39,109 nucleotides of DNA from an uncultured Spirochaetota bacterium (lineage in GTDB: Bacteria; Spirochaetota; Spirochaetia; Treponematales; Rectinemataceae). Positions within the stretch are counted from its first letter, which is position 1, and each line of letters opens with the position of its first letter. The notes under the pieces were generated by a model that was not told the DNA's origin, ran no database searches, and saw only the letters and a program-made list of their open reading frames with translations. The position numbers and the translations under genes were made by a program. Positions 814 through 9,147 of the stretch are shown one piece after another. The DNA lies in NCBI GenBank assembly GCA_903821875.1, contig CAIJMU010000109.1:1-39109 (forward strand), written 5' to 3'.

Positions 814-1206
814 TTACAAAAGCGCCGTGATGCGTGGCAGAAGGTAATCGCGCAGGGCCTTGCTCTTCTCAAGGCTCTCTGTCACATCCGCTATGGTGAT
901 CTCCACGGAGGACGGATAGCGGGTGACGACCCCGAAGACTGTGAGGGAGCGGAATGAATCCTTGAACCGCCCCAGGGTGTCATCGAAAGGGGCGCACATA
1001 GCAGCAATTCGTTCGAGGTCATGGACCTTCTCAAAGGAGACACCGGCCGAGACGAGGTAGGCTTTGAGATACTTTTCAACCGCCTGCTGGCAGTGATAGC
1101 AGACGATCTCCCGCGCGATCGGGTGATGCTCCGACAGGATGACCGCGACATCGAGGTCTCTTTCCGCAAAATCCAACCATTCCTGAACTTCCGTCTTCCT
1201 ATCCAT
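814..1206 (-). CDS. HEPN-domain protein (partner of the nucleotidyltransferase)
   Basis: About 130 aa, starting MDRKTEVQEWLDFAERDLDV. This is the N-terminal pattern of the HEPN family PF05168/COG1895: a Trp-Leu-x-x-Ala-x-x-Asp-Leu helix, then CYHCQQAVEKYLKAYL, then a conserved Val-His-Asp-Leu, and near the end an Arg-Tyr-Pro. The ATG at 1206 overlaps the stop of the upstream nucleotidyltransferase gene by 8 bases; a GTG at 1218 is an alternative start. HEPN proteins beside minimal nucleotidyltransferases are usually RNase-type toxins or ligand-binding partners. The R-x4-6-H RNase motif of active HEPN toxins is not visible here, so RNase activity is uncertain; the RYP region may do another job. 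The two genes form one operon. Confidence 0.85.
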   Translation of the reverse strand: MDRKTEVQEWLDFAERDLDVAVILSEHHPIAREIVCYHCQQAVEKYLKAYLVSAGVSFEKVHDLERIAAMCAPFDDTLGRFKDSFRSLTVFGVVTRYPSSVEITIADVTESLEKSKALRDYLLPRITALL

Positions 1207-1549
1207 AGACTGTGACACCCTTGTTCTTGATGGTCTTTTCTATGGTCGATACCGAGTCTGACCGCCAGGCGAATTTCTCGGGAGTGTAGACGAGGATGTC
1301 CATGGGGCGTTCGATGCATTCCGCGAGTTCCTCTTTATAGGCGCGCATCAGATCAAGCTCGTTTCGCGGATCGGCGGAGATGATGCATATATCAAGATCG
1401 CTGTCGGGACGCGGAGACCCATAGGCGAAGGAACCGAAAAGGATTACCTGTCGGATGGCCGCATCTCGTTTCGCCATGTCTACGAGCACTTCGATTTCCC
1501 GGGCTATGGGTTCGAGTAGCCTTGACCTGTCTTTCGCCTCTGATTCCAT
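1199..1549 (-). CDS. Minimal nucleotidyltransferase (MNT/MntA-like)
   Basis: About 116 aa from ATG 1549. The polymerase-beta fold signature is plain: GSFAYGSPRPDSDLDICII, with Gly-Ser and the two metal-binding aspartates of the S-D-x-D motif. A third acidic residue is likely the Asp of PMDILVY. This is the size and motif set of the MntA-type antitoxins that transfer AMP to a HEPN toxin tyrosine; here it is the first gene and HEPN follows with an 8-base overlap. An in-frame GTG at 1576 would add nine residues, but a promoter-like pair (TTTACC and TAGAGT) lies between that GTG and the ATG, which favours the ATG and a very short leader. AMP transfer is inferred from the family. A pair that modifies another target is also possible. 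Confidence 0.85.
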   Translation of the reverse strand: MESEAKDRSRLLEPIAREIEVLVDMAKRDAAIRQVILFGSFAYGSPRPDSDLDICIISADPRNELDLMRAYKEELAECIERPMDILVYTPEKFAWRSDSVSTIEKTIKNKGVTVYG

Positions 1550-1556
1550 GGCTGCT

Positions 1557-1585
1557 ACTCTACTTGATCCCTCCACTTGGGTAAA
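1557..1585 (-). promoter_or_regulatory. Likely promoter of the nucleotidyltransferase/HEPN pair
   Basis: On the minus strand TTTACC (1585-1580) and TAGAGT (1562-1557) are separated by 17 bases. The expected transcription start would be only a few bases before the ATG at 1549. Seen by eye against sigma-70 consensus. Confidence 0.4.
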
Positions 1586-1650
1586 TGCGCCTCAGTCGGA
1601 CCATGTCGTGCCTAGCCCGCGAGGACCTTTTCAGGCTTGCATACCCAACG

Positions 1651-1667
1651 CATGTATAGTATACATG
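1651..1667. promoter_or_regulatory. 17-bp palindrome, candidate LexA-type operator of the mutasome operon
   Basis: CATGTATAGTATACATG is a perfect palindrome with 8-bp arms around a central G. It contains TATAGT (1655-1660), a good -10 match, and sits 4 bases before the ATG of the DUF72 gene at 1672, so a bound repressor would block the promoter. The arms TGTAT/ATACA resemble those of the gammaproteobacterial LexA box (CTGT-N8-ACAG) but with one base less between them. Because the downstream genes are translesion polymerases, which LexA commonly controls, a LexA-type site is the best guess. The repressor itself is not in the window. Confidence 0.6.
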
Positions 1668-1671
1668 GCTC

Positions 1672-2544
1672 ATGGCGGCGCAGGTTGAGGCGGGGATCGA
1701 CCTCAGGATAGGCACCTCGGGTTTTGACTATCCCGAGTGGAAGGGGGTGCTCTACCCCGAGGCCCTGCCCCGTAGCGAGTTTCCTGCAGCCTACGGACGG
1801 GCCTTTTCGACGCTGGAACTCAACTTCAGCTACTACGGCATGCCCAAGGCGGCCAACCTTGCGGCGCTGATGGACCGGATGGCCGCTCCGGGCCTCGACT
1901 TTTCCATCAAGGCCCACCGGAGCCTCACGCACGAGATCGAAGCAACAAGGTTGGAGGAACAGGCCAGGGAATTCCGGGCGGGTATTGCGCCCCTGGCACG
2001 GGCCGGAAGGCTTGCGGCCATCCTCTTCGAGTTTCCCTGGCGCTTCGCCTATGGCGTCGAGGAGCGCCGTTATCTCGACCGACTCCTCGGGGAATTCGGG
2101 GATTACACCCGCGTTGTTGAATTCCGCCACAGGGACTGGGTAAACGCGCGGGTCCTGGAGGGGCTGCGTGAGCGGGGGGTAGGATTCTGCTCCCTCGATC
2201 TGCCGCGCCTTGAGGGACTCCCCCCGGTTGCTGACATCGTGACGGCGGACACGGCCTACCTGCGCTTTCACGGACGCAACGCGGCGGACTGGTGGAACGG
2301 CGACTCGCGGGGCCGCTACGACTGGCTCTACTCGCGGGAGGACCTCGCGTCCTGGCTGCCGCGCATCCAGGCCATGGCCGCGCGCGCGAAGCGCCTGAGG
2401 ATCTACTTCAACAACCACGCGCGGGGGCAGGCGGTGGCGAATGCGCGCGAACTCGGGGCGCTGCTTGCCGGGGCGGGACTCGGAAGCGGCAAGGCATCAC
2501 TGTGGCAAGCGGAACCATCCTCCACCTCAACCTCGTCGGACTGA
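1672..2544 (+). CDS. DUF72 (YecE-like) TIM-barrel protein at the head of the mutasome operon
   Basis: 290 aa from ATG 1672. The start has the DUF72 signature: after a short lead comes LRIGTSGFDYPEWKGVLYP, followed by the conserved LNFSYYGMP and the Lys-Ala-His of FSIKAHRSLTHE. Near the end IYFNNHARGQAVANARELG is the typical DUF72 closing motif. The family has a TIM-barrel fold with no settled function; structural likeness to endonuclease IV has been proposed for one member. No clear SD precedes the start, and the palindrome with its -10-like core is immediately upstream, so the mRNA may be almost leaderless. The 3' end overlaps the ImuB-like gene by 43 bases if that gene starts at GTG 2502. 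Its place, where imuA is usual in such cassettes, suggests a role in the same repair process; that is inference. Confidence 0.88.
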   Translation: MAAQVEAGIDLRIGTSGFDYPEWKGVLYPEALPRSEFPAAYGRAFSTLELNFSYYGMPKAANLAALMDRMAAPGLDFSIKAHRSLTHEIEATRLEEQAREFRAGIAPLARAGRLAAILFEFPWRFAYGVEERRYLDRLLGEFGDYTRVVEFRHRDWVNARVLEGLRERGVGFCSLDLPRLEGLPPVADIVTADTAYLRFHGRNAADWWNGDSRGRYDWLYSREDLASWLPRIQAMAARAKRLRIYFNNHARGQAVANARELGALLAGAGLGSGKASLWQAEPSSTSTSSD

Positions 2545-3710
2545 TGGCGGCGGTCGAGGAGGGCCTCGATCCCGGCCTCCGAGGCCGTCCCTTCGCGATC
2601 GGCAACGTCGGCCGGAACCGGCCCGTCTGCCTCGACCTCTCGCCCGAGGCCCACCGCGCGGGGCTCAGGCGTGGCATGTCCCTCGACTATGCGCACAGGC
2701 AGTTGCGGGAGCTCGTCATCAAGGAAGCGAGGCCCGGGCTCTACGAAAGGGCCGACGCCGAACTCTTCCGCATTGCCTCGATTTTCAGCCCCCTTGTGGA
2801 GCGCGCCGGGACGGGGCACCTCTTCGTGGACTTCCGGGGAACGCGCGGACTCTGGGGAGAAGCCGTAGACGGAGTGGCAAAGCTCCGCCGCGAGATCCTC
2901 GAGAAGACGGGCCTCCTGCCCGTGCTGGCCCTCGCCTCGACAAAGACCGTCTCCAAGGTAGCCACGAGGGTAATGCGTCCAACTGGGTTTATCGCGCTTG
3001 AGGAGGGGGAGGAACGTGGCCTCCTACGGAGGCAACCCGTGGAACTCCTGCCGGGAATCGGCCCCCTCCTCCGCGACAGGCTCAGGATGCTCGAGATCGA
3101 GGAGATCGGCGCCCTGGGCGATCTCGATGAACTTTCGGCCCGGGCCCTCGGGCCGCGGGGGCCGGCCCTCCGCGACCGGGCGGCCCTCCTCGAGGCTTCG
3201 GCCGTCGACCCCGAGCCTCCCGAACGGCGCCGCATTTCCGGCTCGGTGACCCTGGAGCCGGACAGCGCCGACCCTGAGTTCCTCGCACGGGCGTTACGGA
3301 AGCTCGCCTCCGACCTTGGTTTCTCGATGCGGCGCGAGGGCCTTGCTGCGGGGAGGCTCGGCCTCAGGCTCGGCTTCTCTGACGGCGAGGCGAGTACAGC
3401 TTCGGTGCGCCTGTCCCGGCCCCTCCTCCGCGACGACGAGCTCGGAGGCGCCATCGGTCCCCTCCTCGCACGCGCGCGGACCCGCCGCAGCCGCGTGCGA
3501 AGCCTGGGCCTCGAGCTTTCCGAATTCGCCTCTGCCGGTCCCGAACTCGACCTATTTACACCGATGGAAGCCAGGATGGGCCGGCTTCAAGGTGCCCTCG
3601 ACGCTGTCCGCCGCCGCTACGGGACCGACGCCATCGGTTCTGCGGGAGGACTGGCCCTCCCGCAGGCGACCGGGGCCTTGGCCCAGGCCTTGGCCAAGGT
3701 CCGGGCATGA
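2502..3710 (+). CDS. imuB: ImuB-like, catalytically inactive Y-family polymerase homologue
   Basis: 402 aa from GTG 2502, which has AAGG 7 bases upstream; ATG 2544 would delete the first strand of the fold. The Y-family layout is clear: ILHLNLVGLMAAVEEGLDP at residues 6-24, a helix-hairpin-helix VELLPGIGPLLRDRL and a little-finger-like C-terminal part. The metal ligands are missing. The first catalytic Asp is Asn10, and the S-x-D-E pair of active polymerases aligns with Gly105-His106 in AGTGHLFVDF. This is the hallmark of ImuB, which acts as an adaptor that brings DnaE2 to the sliding clamp. A PELDLF at residues 347-352 resembles a beta-clamp binding motif. The gene overlaps dnaE2 by 4 bases (ATGA). 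I see no C-terminal RecA/ImuA-type part. Confidence 0.8.
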   Translation: MASGTILHLNLVGLMAAVEEGLDPGLRGRPFAIGNVGRNRPVCLDLSPEAHRAGLRRGMSLDYAHRQLRELVIKEARPGLYERADAELFRIASIFSPLVERAGTGHLFVDFRGTRGLWGEAVDGVAKLRREILEKTGLLPVLALASTKTVSKVATRVMRPTGFIALEEGEERGLLRRQPVELLPGIGPLLRDRLRMLEIEEIGALGDLDELSARALGPRGPALRDRAALLEASAVDPEPPERRRISGSVTLEPDSADPEFLARALRKLASDLGFSMRREGLAAGRLGLRLGFSDGEASTASVRLSRPLLRDDELGGAIGPLLARARTRRSRVRSLGLELSEFASAGPELDLFTPMEARMGRLQGALDAVRRRYGTDAIGSAGGLALPQATGALAQALAKVRA

Positions 3711-6700
3711 TCATCCCCCTCCCCCTTCATACCTACTATTCCTTTCACTTCGGGACCATCCCGCCAGCAAGGCTCATGGTGGAGGCGGCTCGCCTGGGCT
3801 ACACGGCCCTTGCGGTGACCGACCGCGAGGGGGTCTTCGGCTTGCCGCCCTTCTACGAGGCCGCAGGGAAGGCCGGGATCAGGCCCATCGCCGGTGTGGA
3901 ACTCGGCTACACAGACGGGCCCCCGCGGCATGTTCATGATAATTGCATCATTCTAGCGAAAAACCGGCGTGGTTTCTCGGCGATCTCGAGGATCCTCACG
4001 GAAAGGGCGCTCTGCCTGCCCGGTGGAAAGGTCGATTCCACATCCACGATGCCGGGCCTTGCCCAGGCGCTCGGGGAGGCCGGCGACACCGTCATCGCGC
4101 TCACCACCGACGCCAGGCTCCTCGACAGCTGGCGGGGACAGGCCGAGCGCTACGCCCTCCTCCCCGCCGCTGCGAGGGGTTCCTGGAAAAAGCTTCTCGC
4201 AGGCGCTGCGGCGAACGGCATTAAGGCCGTGGCGGGGCCAGGAGTCTCCTTCCTTTCGCCATCCGACCGCGAGGTCCAGCGCCTCCTCGTCGCAATCGGG
4301 AAGACGGCCACCATCTACGAGGTCGCTGACTCGGAGCTCGCCCCTTCCATGGCCTGCCTCGCCTCCCCGGCAGCGCTCGCGGCGCCGTTCCGCGACCTGC
4401 CAGAAACGATCACGAACAACGAGGCTGTGGCCGAGGCCTGCAGCCTCGACAGCCTCTTCAATGGCTGGCACTTCCCCGCCTGGCCGACCGACCATCCCGG
4501 AGGGCCTGCCGGGCTGCTTCGGGACCTCACCCTGGCTGGCACGGCACGGCGCCTCGGCTCGATTCCGGATGCCTACCGTGCCCGCATCGACTACGAACTC
4601 GGCATAATTTCCGAGAAAAGTTTTGCCGACTACTTCCTCGTCGTCCGCGACATCGTCAGCCGCGCCTCGCGGACCTGCGGACGGGGCAGCGCAGCAGCAA
4701 GCATCGTGTCCTGGGCCCTCGAGATCACCGATGTCGACCCCCTTCGCCACGACCTCTACTTCGAACGCTTCCTCAACCCCGGACGCAGCGACCCACCCGA
4801 CATCGACGTCGATTTTGCCTGGGACGAGCGGGACAAGCTCCTGGCCGATGTCGTGGCAAGATATGGCGAAGCCCACACGGCGCGGGTCGCCAACCACGTG
4901 ACCTTCCGCCATCGCGGTGCCCTCCGCGAGACGGCGCGTGCCTTCGGCATTCCCGACTCGGAGACGGGTGGCCGCGAACGCGGACTGTCGCAGGATCCTG
5001 GCGCCGCCAGCATCCATGACCCCGCTGGCGCCGCCAGCATCCATGACCCCGCTGGCGCCGGGCGCGATGCCGACCCCACGTGGAAGGCCATCACGGAGCT
5101 CTCCGCACGCATCGTGGGTTTTCCCCGCAACATCGGAACCCACTCGGGAGGAGTCGTCATCGTTCCAGGCGCCTTGCACGACATCGTACCACTACTGAAG
5201 ACAGGCAGCGGCATCCGTGTCACCGCCTGGGACAAGGAGGGCGTCGAGGCGGCTGGACTCGTGAAGATAGACCTGCTTGGGAACAGGTCGCTGGCTGTGG
5301 TACGGGACGCAACTGCCAATGTCGCCGGCTCCCCGGACCTTTGCTCCCGGCCAGAGGACGATTCTGCCACCATCGCGCTGCTGGCCAGGGGCGACACGAT
5401 GGGCGTCTTCTATGTCGAGTCCCCCGCGATGCGGCTCCTCCAGAAGAAGACCGGTGCCGGTGATTTCGCCCATCTCGTCATCCACTCATCGATCATCCGG
5501 CCCGCCGCAAACCGGTATATCAACGAGTACATCGACCGCCACCTCGGAAAGCCCTGGACGCATATCCACCCCCTCCTGTCGGGCATCCTCGACGAGGCCC
5601 ATGGGCTCATGTGCTACCAGGAGGACGTGAGCAAGGTCGCCGTGGCACTGGCGGGATTCACGCCTGCCGAGGCCGACGGCATGCGGAAGGTCCTGTCGAA
5701 AAAGGACGCGGTCACACGCCTCGATTCCTGGCTCCCGAAATTCCAGGATGGTGCGCGTGCTCGCGGCGTGGACGATGCGAAGATCGCTGAGATCTGGGAC
5801 ATGATCCAGTCCTTCGCCGGCTACAGCTTCGTGAAGGCCCACTCGGCCTCCTACGCCAGACTCTCCTTCAGGAGCGCCTGGCTCCGGGCCCACCACCCTG
5901 CCGAGTTCATGGCCGCGGTGATGTCCAACCGCGGCGGCTACTACGGCATCCTGGCCTACGCGAGCGAGGCACGCCGCATGGGCCTGGCCCTCCTCCCTCC
6001 CTCGGTACAGGACAGCGGCAGGAGGGCAAAGGGCAGTGTTGGTACTATCCGCTTCGGGCTGGAGTCGATCGGAGGACTCTCGGAGGCCTGCATGGACCGT
6101 ATCGTGGCGGAGCGGGCGCTGTCTGGAGCCTTTGCCTCGGCACTGGACTTCGCCCGGCGGGTCTGGCCCGCCCGCGACGATGCGGAGGCCCTTGCGGAAT
6201 CCGGAGCCCTCGATACCCTGTCGCCCGGGCTTCGACGTCCAGAAAAGCTCCTGTGCATCCTGTCCTTCGCCGCGACACGGGAGGCATCGGGTCGCCCGGA
6301 CGCCCAGGGAGCGGGCAGCCTCTTCCAGGACCAGCCATCCGTGACAGCCTTCCCCGGGGAGGCCCGCGAAGTGGCCGGACCGCCTCCGGAAAACTCCGGA
6401 TCCGGGTGGCAAGCCGCGGGCGTCTCCCGTCGTACCTTCCTCGAAGGCCAGATGCGACGTATTGGTACGACCCTGTCGGTCCACCCCCTTGAGCTCTGGC
6501 CCGGGGCCCTGGCTTCGCAGCGGGTCCTTGCCCGCGACCTTGCGTCCAAGGAGGGGCGTGTCGTGCGCCTGGTCGGTTGGCCGGTGACTGCAAAGGAGGT
6601 GCTCGCACAGGGTGAACTTCCCATGGAGTTCGTGAGCTTCGAGGACGAGACGGCGATCTACGAGGCGGTGCTCTTCCCGGATACCTACCGCCGCTTCGGG

Positions 6701-6856
6701 GCTCTCCTCTTCGAGGAAAGGCCCTTCATCATCACAGGGAAGGTCTGCGTGGACCGGGGCGGCCTGTCCCTCGAGCTTCGGAACCTCGAGCGGGTGCCAG
6801 GAAGGGCGCTGGTGCCCCCGGGCCAGGCGAAGGCTTTCTACGGCAGGTACTGGTAG
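3707..6856 (+). CDS. dnaE2: Error-prone DNA polymerase III alpha subunit DnaE2 (ImuC)
   Basis: 1049 aa, about the DnaE2 size and shorter than replicative DnaE. Order: PHP domain (residues 1 to about 200), palm with PDIDVDF (Asp365 and Asp367) and VKIDLLG (Asp522), which match the three catalytic aspartates of E. coli DnaE. HSGGVVIVPG and CYQEDVSKVAVALAGF are fingers motifs. An OB fold closes the protein (GRVVRLVGWPVTAKE to about the end). The PHP motifs are degenerate: LHTYYSFHFGT in place of HxHSxYS, and TDRE in place of TDH. Phosphoesterase or proofreading activity is therefore unlikely, as in other DnaE2 proteins. Residues about 432-450 contain a perfect 9-residue tandem duplication. The ATG overlaps the imuB stop, so the three genes are one operon. 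Function inferred: translesion synthesis after DNA damage. Confidence 0.92.
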   Translation: MIIPLPLHTYYSFHFGTIPPARLMVEAARLGYTALAVTDREGVFGLPPFYEAAGKAGIRPIAGVELGYTDGPPRHVHDNCIILAKNRRGFSAISRILTERALCLPGGKVDSTSTMPGLAQALGEAGDTVIALTTDARLLDSWRGQAERYALLPAAARGSWKKLLAGAAANGIKAVAGPGVSFLSPSDREVQRLLVAIGKTATIYEVADSELAPSMACLASPAALAAPFRDLPETITNNEAVAEACSLDSLFNGWHFPAWPTDHPGGPAGLLRDLTLAGTARRLGSIPDAYRARIDYELGIISEKSFADYFLVVRDIVSRASRTCGRGSAAASIVSWALEITDVDPLRHDLYFERFLNPGRSDPPDIDVDFAWDERDKLLADVVARYGEAHTARVANHVTFRHRGALRETARAFGIPDSETGGRERGLSQDPGAASIHDPAGAASIHDPAGAGRDADPTWKAITELSARIVGFPRNIGTHSGGVVIVPGALHDIVPLLKTGSGIRVTAWDKEGVEAAGLVKIDLLGNRSLAVVRDATANVAGSPDLCSRPEDDSATIALLARGDTMGVFYVESPAMRLLQKKTGAGDFAHLVIHSSIIRPAANRYINEYIDRHLGKPWTHIHPLLSGILDEAHGLMCYQEDVSKVAVALAGFTPAEADGMRKVLSKKDAVTRLDSWLPKFQDGARARGVDDAKIAEIWDMIQSFAGYSFVKAHSASYARLSFRSAWLRAHHPAEFMAAVMSNRGGYYGILAYASEARRMGLALLPPSVQDSGRRAKGSVGTIRFGLESIGGLSEACMDRIVAERALSGAFASALDFARRVWPARDDAEALAESGALDTLSPGLRRPEKLLCILSFAATREASGRPDAQGAGSLFQDQPSVTAFPGEAREVAGPPPENSGSGWQAAGVSRRTFLEGQMRRIGTTLSVHPLELWPGALASQRVLARDLASKEGRVVRLVGWPVTAKEVLAQGELPMEFVSFEDETAIYEAVLFPDTYRRFGALLFEERPFIITGKVCVDRGGLSLELRNLERVPGRALVPPGQAKAFYGRYW
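5001..5060 (+). repeat. Perfect 27-bp tandem duplication inside dnaE2
   Basis: Two identical 27-base units (5001-5027 and 5028-5054) are followed by six bases of a third. They are in frame and encode AASIHDPAG twice. They lie between the palm catalytic pair and the HSGGVVI motif, in a segment that looks like a surface insertion. Identity at DNA level points to a recent duplication. Confidence 0.95.
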
Positions 6857-6880
6857 GGCTCGGCTGCGAGCGCCAGGGAC

Positions 6881-7453
6881 TCATCTCCGGGCCACCCGCC
6901 CCGCTTCCATGAGGAGCTCCGAGTAAAAGCGCGGCTCGATGGCCTCCTCCCCGATGCCAGCCTGGGCCAGCAAGCTGCGGATCTCCCCCTGTGCCCGGGC
7001 AACGGCGCCTGGGTCGTTTTCGGGAACGAGGGCCTCGATCTCGAGGAACCACCCAATTCCCTCTATCTCGGCGAGTTCGAGGCCGACGGACGTCCCGGAC
7101 GCGGCCCCCGCCACAGCCTCGTAGCGGCTGCCTCGCTTCCGTTTCTCGAAGTGGGGCTCGCAGCCGAGGCGCCAGGCGAATTCGACAAAGGCCGACTGGT
7201 CGGAGACCGTGAACTCCCGCTCGCAGTTGACTTCGATGCCACCCTCAAGGCGCTTGTCCTTGAAGGTGACGAAGGAGTCCCCTCCATCGGTCCGGAGCCT
7301 GAAGCCGCGCCTGTCACCGTCCTCAAGCCGCCGGGGACCCTGCCAGTAGGCATCGCGCTTGTCGAAATCGCGGTCGAGGCGGCAGAAGGACTCGAGGCGC
7401 CCCCTGGTCGCCTCCGGATCGGATACGCGGGCCTTCAGCTCGACCTCCATCAT
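6881..7453 (-). CDS. CYTH-domain protein (class IV adenylate cyclase / triphosphatase type)
   Basis: 190 aa. The CYTH signature Glu-x-Glu-x-Lys opens the protein (MMEVELKARV), followed by charged strands typical of the triphosphate tunnel: GFRLRTDG, FVTFKDKR, NCEREFTV, FEKRKRGSRYE, and the acidic ELAEIEGIGWFLEIEAL. The family includes CyaB-type adenylate cyclase and inorganic or thiamine triphosphatases; the sequence alone does not decide the substrate. The ATG overlaps the gpmI stop in ATGA, so it is the last gene of the minus-strand operon. The 24 bases to the convergent dnaE2 stop at 6856 hold no visible terminator. If it makes cAMP, the Crp-type protein at 23570-24262 is a possible receptor; that is speculation. 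Confidence 0.82.
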   Translation of the reverse strand: MMEVELKARVSDPEATRGRLESFCRLDRDFDKRDAYWQGPRRLEDGDRRGFRLRTDGGDSFVTFKDKRLEGGIEVNCEREFTVSDQSAFVEFAWRLGCEPHFEKRKRGSRYEAVAGAASGTSVGLELAEIEGIGWFLEIEALVPENDPGAVARAQGEIRSLLAQAGIGEEAIEPRFYSELLMEAGRVARR

Positions 7454-9147
7454 CGCGCGGAGCCCTCCATCACGAGGACCGAGGGATCGTAACCCTCGGG
7501 GGGAACGAATCCGAGCAGCTCGATGGTCGTCGCCGCGAGGCTGGAGATGCCGAGCTTCCCTCCCTCCTTTCCGTCGCGGAGCTCCTTCGAATATTCGCCC
7601 GCGTATCCCGGATCATACAGGAGGCAGGGAACGGGGTTGAGGGAATGGCTGGTCTTGGCGCGGGGACTGCCGTCGGGTTTCCGGGACACCTCTCCGCCCT
7701 TCTTCTCGTGTTCATACATGTCATCTGAATTGCCATGATCTGCGGAGACGAGGAGGATCCCCCCTGCCCTCTCGACGGCCCTGCGGATGCGGCCTATCTG
7801 GAGGTCCATGGCCTCGAGGGAACAAACGACGGCCTGGTAGACGCCCGTATGGCCGACCATATCGCCGTTGGGGAAATTGAGCCGTATGAACTGGTACTTC
7901 CCGGAACCGACAGCCTCGATGACGCGGTCGGCAATCTCGGCGCACTTCATCCAGGGCCTCTGTTCGAAGGGCAGGACATCCGAGGTGATCTCGACGTAGT
8001 CCTCGTACTGTGCGGAGAACTTCCCCTGGCGGTTGCCATTGAAGAAATAGGTGACATGGCCGTACTTCTGGGTCTCGGAGATCGCAAGCATCGGGACCTT
8101 CGAGGCGACGAGGTATTCGCCGAGGGTCCGGTCGATGGAGGGGGGTTCGACGATGTACTGCTTCGGCACGTGGGCGTCGCCGTCGTACTCCATCATGCCC
8201 GCGTACTCGACGCGGGGCCGCCTGCCGCGGTCGAAATGTCCGAAGCCCTCGTCCTCGAAGGCGGCAGTGATCTCGAGGGCGCGGTCGCCCCGGAAATTGA
8301 AGTAGACTACGGAATCGCCGTCCTCGATCGTGCCGACGGGTTTGCCGTCCGGGGCAACCACGAATTCGTGGAGGTCCTGGTCGATGACGGAGGGATTCTC
8401 GGCGCGGTAGGCCAGGACTGCCTCGCGTGCGCTCGGGAAGGCGCGGCCCTGGCCGTGGACATGGCATTCCCAGCCCCGCCTGACCTGCTCCCAATTGGCG
8501 CCGTAACGGTCCATGGTGATGTATTGCCTTCCGCCGCCCGAGGCGACGCGATAGTCGAAACCCTTGGCATTGAAGGTATCAAGGAAGGCTTCGAAGGGAT
8601 CGAGATACTCGAGGGCGCTCTGTTCACCGACGTCGCGCCCGTCCAGGAGCGCATGGACGCGGACCTTTTTCACTCCCTCTTTGGCGGCCTGCGAGATCAT
8701 TGCCTTGAGGTGGTCGAGGTGCGAATGGACGTTGCCGTCGGAGAATAGCCCGATGAAGTGGAGGGCACCGCCGACCGGGGCGCCGCCGACCGCTTTCACA
8801 TTGCCGACGAGCCGCTTCCAGGTGGCACCCTCGAACATGGCGCCCGAAGCGATGGAAGCGCCGACCAGCTTGGCGCCCTGGGCATAGACGCGGCCACAGC
8901 CTATGGCGTTGTGACCGACCTCGGAATTGCCCATGTCCTCGTCTGAGGGAAGTCCGACAGCCTTGCCGTGGGCCTTGAGCTTCGTGCGCGGACAGCTGGC
9001 CTCGAGGGCACGGAACGCGTCCATCTTGGCGTCGGCGACAGCGTCGCCCTCGCGATGGGCGCCATAGCCGACGCCATCCATGATGACGAGCACGAGGGGG
9101 CCGCTCCGGCCCTTCCATGAAGGATTGCGGTTCAGTGCCTGGACCAT
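7450..9147 (-). CDS. gpmI: 2,3-bisphosphoglycerate-independent phosphoglycerate mutase
   Basis: 565 aa from the second of two close ATG codons (9147). That ATG has AAGGAG 8 bases upstream, whereas the first (9153) is only 2 bases from it. The alkaline-phosphatase fold is shown by LVIMDGVGYGAHREGDA at the start, the active-site serine in EDMGNSEVGHNAIG, ALLDGRDVGEQSALEY, a metal site in NGDMVGHTG, and LLVSADHGNSDDMYEHEKKGG. It interconverts 3- and 2-phosphoglycerate in glycolysis using two manganese ions. It is somewhat longer than the usual 510-550 aa. The gene follows apt by 49 bases. The next gene, CYTH, begins inside its stop codon. Confidence 0.96.
   Translation of the reverse strand: MVQALNRNPSWKGRSGPLVLVIMDGVGYGAHREGDAVADAKMDAFRALEASCPRTKLKAHGKAVGLPSDEDMGNSEVGHNAIGCGRVYAQGAKLVGASIASGAMFEGATWKRLVGNVKAVGGAPVGGALHFIGLFSDGNVHSHLDHLKAMISQAAKEGVKKVRVHALLDGRDVGEQSALEYLDPFEAFLDTFNAKGFDYRVASGGGRQYITMDRYGANWEQVRRGWECHVHGQGRAFPSAREAVLAYRAENPSVIDQDLHEFVVAPDGKPVGTIEDGDSVVYFNFRGDRALEITAAFEDEGFGHFDRGRRPRVEYAGMMEYDGDAHVPKQYIVEPPSIDRTLGEYLVASKVPMLAISETQKYGHVTYFFNGNRQGKFSAQYEDYVEITSDVLPFEQRPWMKCAEIADRVIEAVGSGKYQFIRLNFPNGDMVGHTGVYQAVVCSLEAMDLQIGRIRRAVERAGGILLVSADHGNSDDMYEHEKKGGEVSRKPDGSPRAKTSHSLNPVPCLLYDPGYAGEYSKELRDGKEGGKLGISSLAATTIELLGFVPPEGYDPSVLVMEGSAR

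Follow-up and report, generated by a model that had tools for sequence, protein, structure and literature searches.

What is a DUF72 protein doing at the head of an operon whose other two genes encode an inactive Y-family polymerase and a DnaE2-type polymerase? The question is raised by the window analyzed here, a 39,109-nucleotide stretch of DNA from an uncultured Spirochaetota bacterium (4.68-Mb draft genome, 193 contigs). Its DUF72 gene, the only one in that genome, forms a single overlapping operon with the genes for the inactive polymerase (iPolY) and DnaE2 (Table 1). In a Pfam scan, the open reading frame at 1672-2541 matches DUF72 (PF01904; 189 bits, gathering score 25.3), that at 2412-3707 matches IMS (PF00817; 90 bits) and IMS_C (PF11799; 52 bits), and that at 3707-6853 has the PHP, DNA_pol3_alpha, finger and HHH_6 matches of a DnaE-type polymerase; the polymerase motif PDIDVDF is found in the last of these. 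The named relatives of the operon are spirochaetes (Spirochaetaceae, Treponema and Sphaerochaeta).

Table 1. Features of the DUF72-iPolY-DnaE2 operon in the window
Feature	Position	Strand	Basis
Promoter/operator (predicted)	1637..1665	+	Conserved upstream of DUF72 across spirochaetes; PWM 18.5
DUF72 (PF01904) TIM-barrel protein, 290 aa	1672..2544	+	Pfam, AlphaFold2 model, likeness to 1VPQ, residue table
Catalytically inactive iPolY, ImuB-like without ImuB-C; GTG start inferred	2502..3710	+	IMS and IMS_C; catalytic acids lost
Beta-clamp-binding-like motif ELDLF in iPolY	3543..3557	+	L-F invariant in aligned orthologues
RecA-NT-like motif LQGALDAVRRRYGTDAIG in iPolY, predicted RecA-binding	3585..3638	+	Motif and weak HMM match
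DnaE2-type error-prone DNA polymerase III alpha, 1049 aa	3707..6856	+	Pfam and NCBIfam

An earlier note on this DNA had described the three genes as one overlapping unit, with 43 shared bases at the first junction and an ATGA overlap at the second. This description holds: the iPolY GTG (2502) lies upstream of the end of the DUF72 stop codon (2544), the DnaE2 ATG (3707) overlaps the iPolY stop TGA (3708-3710), and the unit recurs in every assessable spirochaete locus. Only its beginning must be shifted, as the proposed start at 1651 falls within the conserved promoter/operator, which itself belongs to the unit.

The iPolY protein has H-x-N at the metal site, where D-x-D is expected, and G-T-G-H where S-I-D-E is expected. 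H-x-N and G-x-G-H are common to all 18 orthologues of one alignment and to a wider second set of 19. A clear gap in score (>360 versus <240 bits) divides these proteins from ordinary DinB across 59 relatives and 393 genomes sampled from the phylum; one profile search used a 7-row subset of the 18-row iPolY alignment. The clamp-type D-L-F motif is retained and is followed by LQGALDAVRRRYGTDAIG, which resembles the RecA N-terminal oligomerization motif known from UmuC and ImuB (PMC6511836). A RecA-NT-like motif is recognized by pattern in 60 of 80 iPolY tails, and an HMM comparison weakly links 68 of the 80 to RecA N-termini (E<=10, the lowest value being 0.002). The window protein ends about 28 residues after the motif, too soon to accommodate an ImuB-C domain, and its only Pfam matches are IMS and IMS_C. 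The term "inactive ImuB" used previously is thus correct as to the dead catalytic site, but iPolY is the better name.

The first gene product is predicted to adopt a TIM-barrel fold (AlphaFold2 model, pLDDT 89), and its nearest solved structure is 1VPQ (TM1631; TM-score 0.90 by target). No proven function for the DUF72 family was found in the literature, despite the solved structures. For TM1631, Konc et al. predicted the DNA contacts, along with DNA binding and lesion incision (PMC3828134), and PMC11791011 relates the DUF72 fold to UV-damage endonuclease. Nine of the predicted TM1631 contact residues were mapped onto 66 operonic and 20 stand-alone DUF72s (L045, truncated at a contig end, was left out). 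The 58 ordinary operonic copies include all loci brought in by iPolY searches, and 57 of them cover the sites. Tyr48, Lys72, His79 and Arg145 (TM1631 numbering) are retained in 57/57 and Asn44 in 53/57, with Asp in the remaining four. The window protein keeps all of the predicted core contact residues except Gln114, which is replaced by Glu. TM1631 and EF0366 (1VPY/1ZTV) share both fold and predicted DNA-contact residues with the operonic proteins; their own functions are only predicted, and they are not described as mutasome parts.

The linkage of the three genes is strict in spirochaetes. When gene order was read with HMMs and duplicates were removed, DUF72 lay directly 5' of iPolY in 50/50 Spirochaetota loci with enough upstream sequence to be assessed, and DnaE2 lay 3' of iPolY in 46/47 loci with enough downstream sequence, the exception (L055) being a DUF72-iPolY pair without DnaE2. 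At nearly all loci the iPolY start overlaps or abuts the DUF72 stop, with junctions of the type ATGA, TGATG or TAGATG or a single stop between same-phase frames. Apparent iPolY-DnaE2 fusions of 1412 and 1478 aa proved to be separate same-phase frames with a stop between them. The recurrence of the DUF72-iPolY-DnaE2 order is far beyond chance, and the concern that DUF72 might only rarely adjoin the imuB-like gene and dnaE2 in relatives did not materialize. DUF72 distances track those of iPolY (r 0.89) and DnaE2 (r 0.92), and iPolY and DnaE2 track each other (r 0.95). On the DUF72 tree, the operonic spirochaete copies cluster and the stand-alone copies fall elsewhere; the one exception, L228, has no iPolY neighbor. 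Among 14 control genomes, nine have a DUF72.

Outside the Spirochaetota, DUF72 is present in 16/24 Desulfobacterota loci with H-x-N (17/25 if L277, with H-x-D, is included) and in the single Planctomycetota locus. Most of these DUF72-bearing loci have a lexA gene just 5'; in most Desulfobacterota loci, as in L160, lexA immediately precedes the operon. On a mobilizable plasmid of Desulfosarcina ovata, the annotation reads lexA, DUF72, hypothetical protein and DNA polymerase III alpha, and the hypothetical protein is iPolY. More distant Desulfobacterota iPolYs are encoded in lexA-iPolY-dnaE2 operons without DUF72, and a few loci (L280-L283) have iPolY-dnaE2 alone. In two genomes whose iPolY has no adjacent DUF72 (L151 and L161), a DUF72 was not detected anywhere. 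DUF72 is therefore not required for the core of the system. This core is probably iPolY-DnaE2, to which DUF72 would have been added in one branch and then fixed in spirochaetes, if the direction of change has been read correctly.

Eight operonic DUF72s lack all five of Asn44, Tyr48, Lys72, His79 and Arg145. They fall in two places on the DUF72 tree: six (L037, L039, L042, L044, L047 and L062) make up one group, and two (L043 and L046) lie inside an intact group. Read from the branching order irrespective of branch support, this placement suggests at least two losses of the predicted DNA face; the iPolY tree orders the short branches of the decayed loci somewhat differently. The closest decayed pair has a dN of 0.37 against a dS of 2.4, which is near saturation (dN/dS ~0.15). 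In this pair the DUF72s are 56% identical and the iPolYs 81%, while intact pairs show the reverse (81% versus 72% in one, 73% versus 57% in another). Nothing marks the decayed genes as pseudogenes: their frames are open, dN is far below dS in the closest pair, and the C-terminal half, which contains conserved motifs, is still matched by Pfam. A second DUF72 is found elsewhere in all seven searched genomes with a decayed copy (G006, G009, G011, G013, G014, G023 and G043), although in three of these drafts it is broken into fragments. Where the operonic copy is intact, it is in most genomes either the sole DUF72 or accompanied only by a member of a remote subfamily; genus g7 (G007 and G016) is an exception. 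A gene that has lost its DNA face and is still kept under purifying selection is what would be expected of a structural subunit. This decay with retention is the strongest sign of function among the sequence evidence, and suggests that DUF72 has a working role in the unit.

The operon also has a conserved control region. In the window, a -35 box (TTGCAT, 1637-1642) and a -10 box (TATACA, 1660-1665) are separated by a 17-bp spacer, and the operator TACCCAACGCATGTATAGTA lies at 1642-1661, with a degenerate left half-site. Its score of 18.5 compares with 2.9 for the next best site in the whole 39-kb window. The shorter palindrome ATGTATAGTATACAT (1652-1666) was considered as the operator itself but consists of the conserved operator's right half and its continuation into the -10 box. 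The spirochaete consensus upstream of DUF72 is TTGA-n-TACTATAC-N4-GTATAGTA, with the operator between the promoter boxes and the start codon only a few bases 3' of the -10 box; in the window, the RNA is predicted to start on or next to the DUF72 ATG and would be near-leaderless. With <=2 mismatches allowed, 12 spirochaete genomes contain 31 occurrences of the motif and six of a reversed control. Apart from the operons considered here, the motif lies 5' of lexA in two of the 12 genomes (L204 and L210), of the radical-SAM repair gene rSAM_link_UDG in three, of its partner TIGR03915 in two and of mraZ in three; most of the 12 lexA genes lack the operator. The conserved element is a candidate LexA box. 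Operon copies L050, L052 and L107, from two genomes, are preceded by a different operator, and both genomes have an S24-type repressor gene alongside, divergently oriented in the case of L050.

Taken together, these features make it somewhat probable that the operon encodes a damage-induced translesion mutasome of the DnaE2-iPolY-RecA type with DUF72 as a dedicated subunit. The proposed division of labor would be the following. DnaE2 would carry out synthesis, and the dead iPolY would act as the hub, contacting the clamp through its DLF motif and RecA through its RecA-NT-like motif. DUF72, co-translated with iPolY, would most likely bind iPolY or DnaE2 together with the damaged template, and so position or license the complex. 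Its endonuclease-IV-like DNA-binding face would be kept in most lineages, and in at least two lineages with a separate DUF72 the operonic copy without this face may persist as a scaffold. Such a fate would parallel those of ImuB, a dead polymerase, and ImuA, a dead RecA.

The main competitor to a subunit role is that DUF72 is a free-standing repair enzyme, similar to endonuclease IV or UVDE, that is merely co-induced with the polymerases without physically belonging to the mutasome. This is unlikely, but it has substance. The closest structural relative is TM1631, with its predicted DNA binding and incision; the predicted contact residues are kept in most operonic copies, which also argues against a pure scaffold; and DUF72 is enriched near another translesion polymerase gene, polB2 (PMC11791011). 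In addition, an AlphaFold2 model of a tethered DUF72-iPolY chain (made from L152 by reading the stop codon as Gln) has a pTM of 0.52 and no confident interface, but it is a weak test because the linker is very short and the thin alignment has few paired rows. A free enzyme would leave unexplained both the 50/50 linkage and the decayed copies that are kept beside iPolY under purifying selection despite a second copy in the genome.

The earlier note had suggested a variant mutasome in which DUF72 is a working component in the place of ImuA. The working component remains the best explanation, given the linkage and the retained decayed copies; the substitution for ImuA does not. ImuA, which is homologous to RecA, attaches to ImuB at the latter's RecA-NT motif. 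In 57 genomes, the ImuA model NF033429 gave only RecA-level scores (~50 bits versus a cut-off of 150), and the genome of the window has a single RecA-family match; the note's other refuting case, a required imuA elsewhere in the genome, did not arise. Since the same model passed its cut-off in none of the 14 control genomes, it has limited sensitivity, and the absence of ImuA is likely rather than proven. Together with the shared operon position, this is what could be said for a DUF72 that replaces ImuA as the direct ImuB partner in a canonical ImuABC cassette. Such a replacement is nevertheless very unlikely. The RecA-NT-like motif is kept and RecA is present, so that the partner to be expected is RecA, in line with proposals for other modules without ImuA (PMC6511836, PMC12926913), and iPolY has no space for ImuB-C. 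Moreover, DUF72 is unrelated to RecA, and the related lexA-iPolY-dnaE2 operons lack both ImuA and an iPolY-adjacent DUF72; DUF72 was thus probably added to a core that already lacked ImuA. Still less probable is that the DUF72 frame serves mainly as a translational coupler, from which ribosomes restart on iPolY whatever the protein does. The near-leaderless start would suit this, as would the very tight junctions, several of which have nothing but a stop codon separating the frames. Against it stand purifying selection at the amino-acid level in the one decayed pair analyzed, the conserved C-terminal motifs and iPolY-DnaE2 pairs that have no such leader frame.

The proposed mutasome with a DUF72 subunit can be compared to several known systems. 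Like ImuA-ImuB-DnaE2 (ImuABC), it is a three-gene damage cassette with a dead Y-family hub next to DnaE2; the window operon differs in that no ImuA was detected (with a model of limited sensitivity), ImuB-C is missing and the first gene encodes DUF72 rather than a RecA homologue. It more closely resembles, in sequence features, the published DnaE2B-iPolY-RecA modules with a gbDinB2-like iPolY (PMC12926913, PMC6511836), with the window DnaE2 compared by its gene context. As in those modules, an inactive Y-family protein with a RecA-NT motif adjoins DnaE2, ImuA is lacking and lexA is often nearby. The main texts of both papers do not name DUF72, whereas here it is the constant first gene in spirochaetes. 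PolB2 mutasome neighborhoods likewise show enrichment of DUF72 close to the gene of a translesion polymerase, together with LexA or SRAP, but they are built on a B-family polymerase with iRadA and PPB2; in the accessible text, DUF72 is only "enriched to some degree" and no subunit role is proposed (PMC11791011). This was the only mutasome paper found that mentions DUF72, and PMC12926913 was not among the papers containing that word.

A more far-reaching version of the subunit model can be put forward tentatively, at somewhat short of even chances. In this version, DUF72 would be a lesion-recognizing TIM barrel that an ImuA-less DnaE2-iPolY-RecA polymerase has captured as a subunit of a third type, one that becomes a pseudoenzyme time and again. 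With a second DUF72 in the host, its catalytic or DNA-binding face would be dispensable, and only its scaffold role would be left. For the widespread DUF72 family, strict linkage to an ImuA-less mutasome in several phyla and pseudoenzyme decay within the operon provide a concrete and testable role. The operon also supplies a candidate SOS operator for spirochaetes, and it makes DUF72 a candidate part of DnaE2 mutasomes, the drivers of damage-induced mutation.

The spirochaete operator, TACTATAC-N4-GTATAGTA, which is the conserved site in the promoter upstream of DUF72 and a candidate LexA box, is also found upstream of genes outside the mutasome operon. It precedes the radical-SAM repair gene rSAM_link_UDG (L185, L191 and L192), its partner TIGR03915 (L187 and L194) and the division repressor gene mraZ (L186, L189 and L198). 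The genes behind this operator are candidate members of an SOS regulon. The window operator is one of the weakest in the operator set. In the window genome, an in-frame TAG separates the part of lexA that encodes the DNA-binding domain from the part that encodes the protease domain (CGCGCCATATAGATTGTC). This stop codon may reflect a mistake in the draft assembly, or LexA may genuinely have been lost.

The window operon is adjoined by a HEPN and nucleotidyltransferase (MNT-type) gene pair, which is likely to be a toxin-antitoxin module. The window DnaE2 contains an in-frame tandem repeat (..GAASIHDPAGAASIHDPAGAG..).

Coordinates of the features discussed
Feature	Location	Positions	Strand
HEPN + MNT-type gene pair	window	814-1576	-
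Tandem repeat in DnaE2	window	about 4990-5065	
TAG in lexA	window genome, G000:C59 (L316)	about 3768-3770	-
DUF72-iPolY-DnaE2	IMGVR_UViG_3300048038_000034 (L319)	4173-9098	
lexA-DUF72-iPolY-dnaE	NZ_AP021877.1 (L318)	2339-8114	
Solitary DUF72 (L228)	G055:C9 (L315)	6389-7216	

A solitary DUF72 of the operonic clade (L228) has neither iPolY nor DnaE2 within the surrounding 14 kb and is possibly a relic left after module loss. The entire DUF72-iPolY-DnaE2 unit lies on an IMG/VR contig filed as viral, preceded by the same operator as the spirochaete operons; its three frames share one phase and are separated by single stops. This contig may be host DNA. A mobilizable plasmid of Desulfosarcina ovata bears lexA-DUF72-iPolY-dnaE, with the iPolY annotated only as a hypothetical protein. 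Three further operon copies (L050 and L052 of one genome, and L107) have a different operator, GTGATTATTTTAATCAC. They are adjoined by an S24-type repressor gene, divergent at L050, and these mutasome copies are perhaps under the control of their own local repressor.
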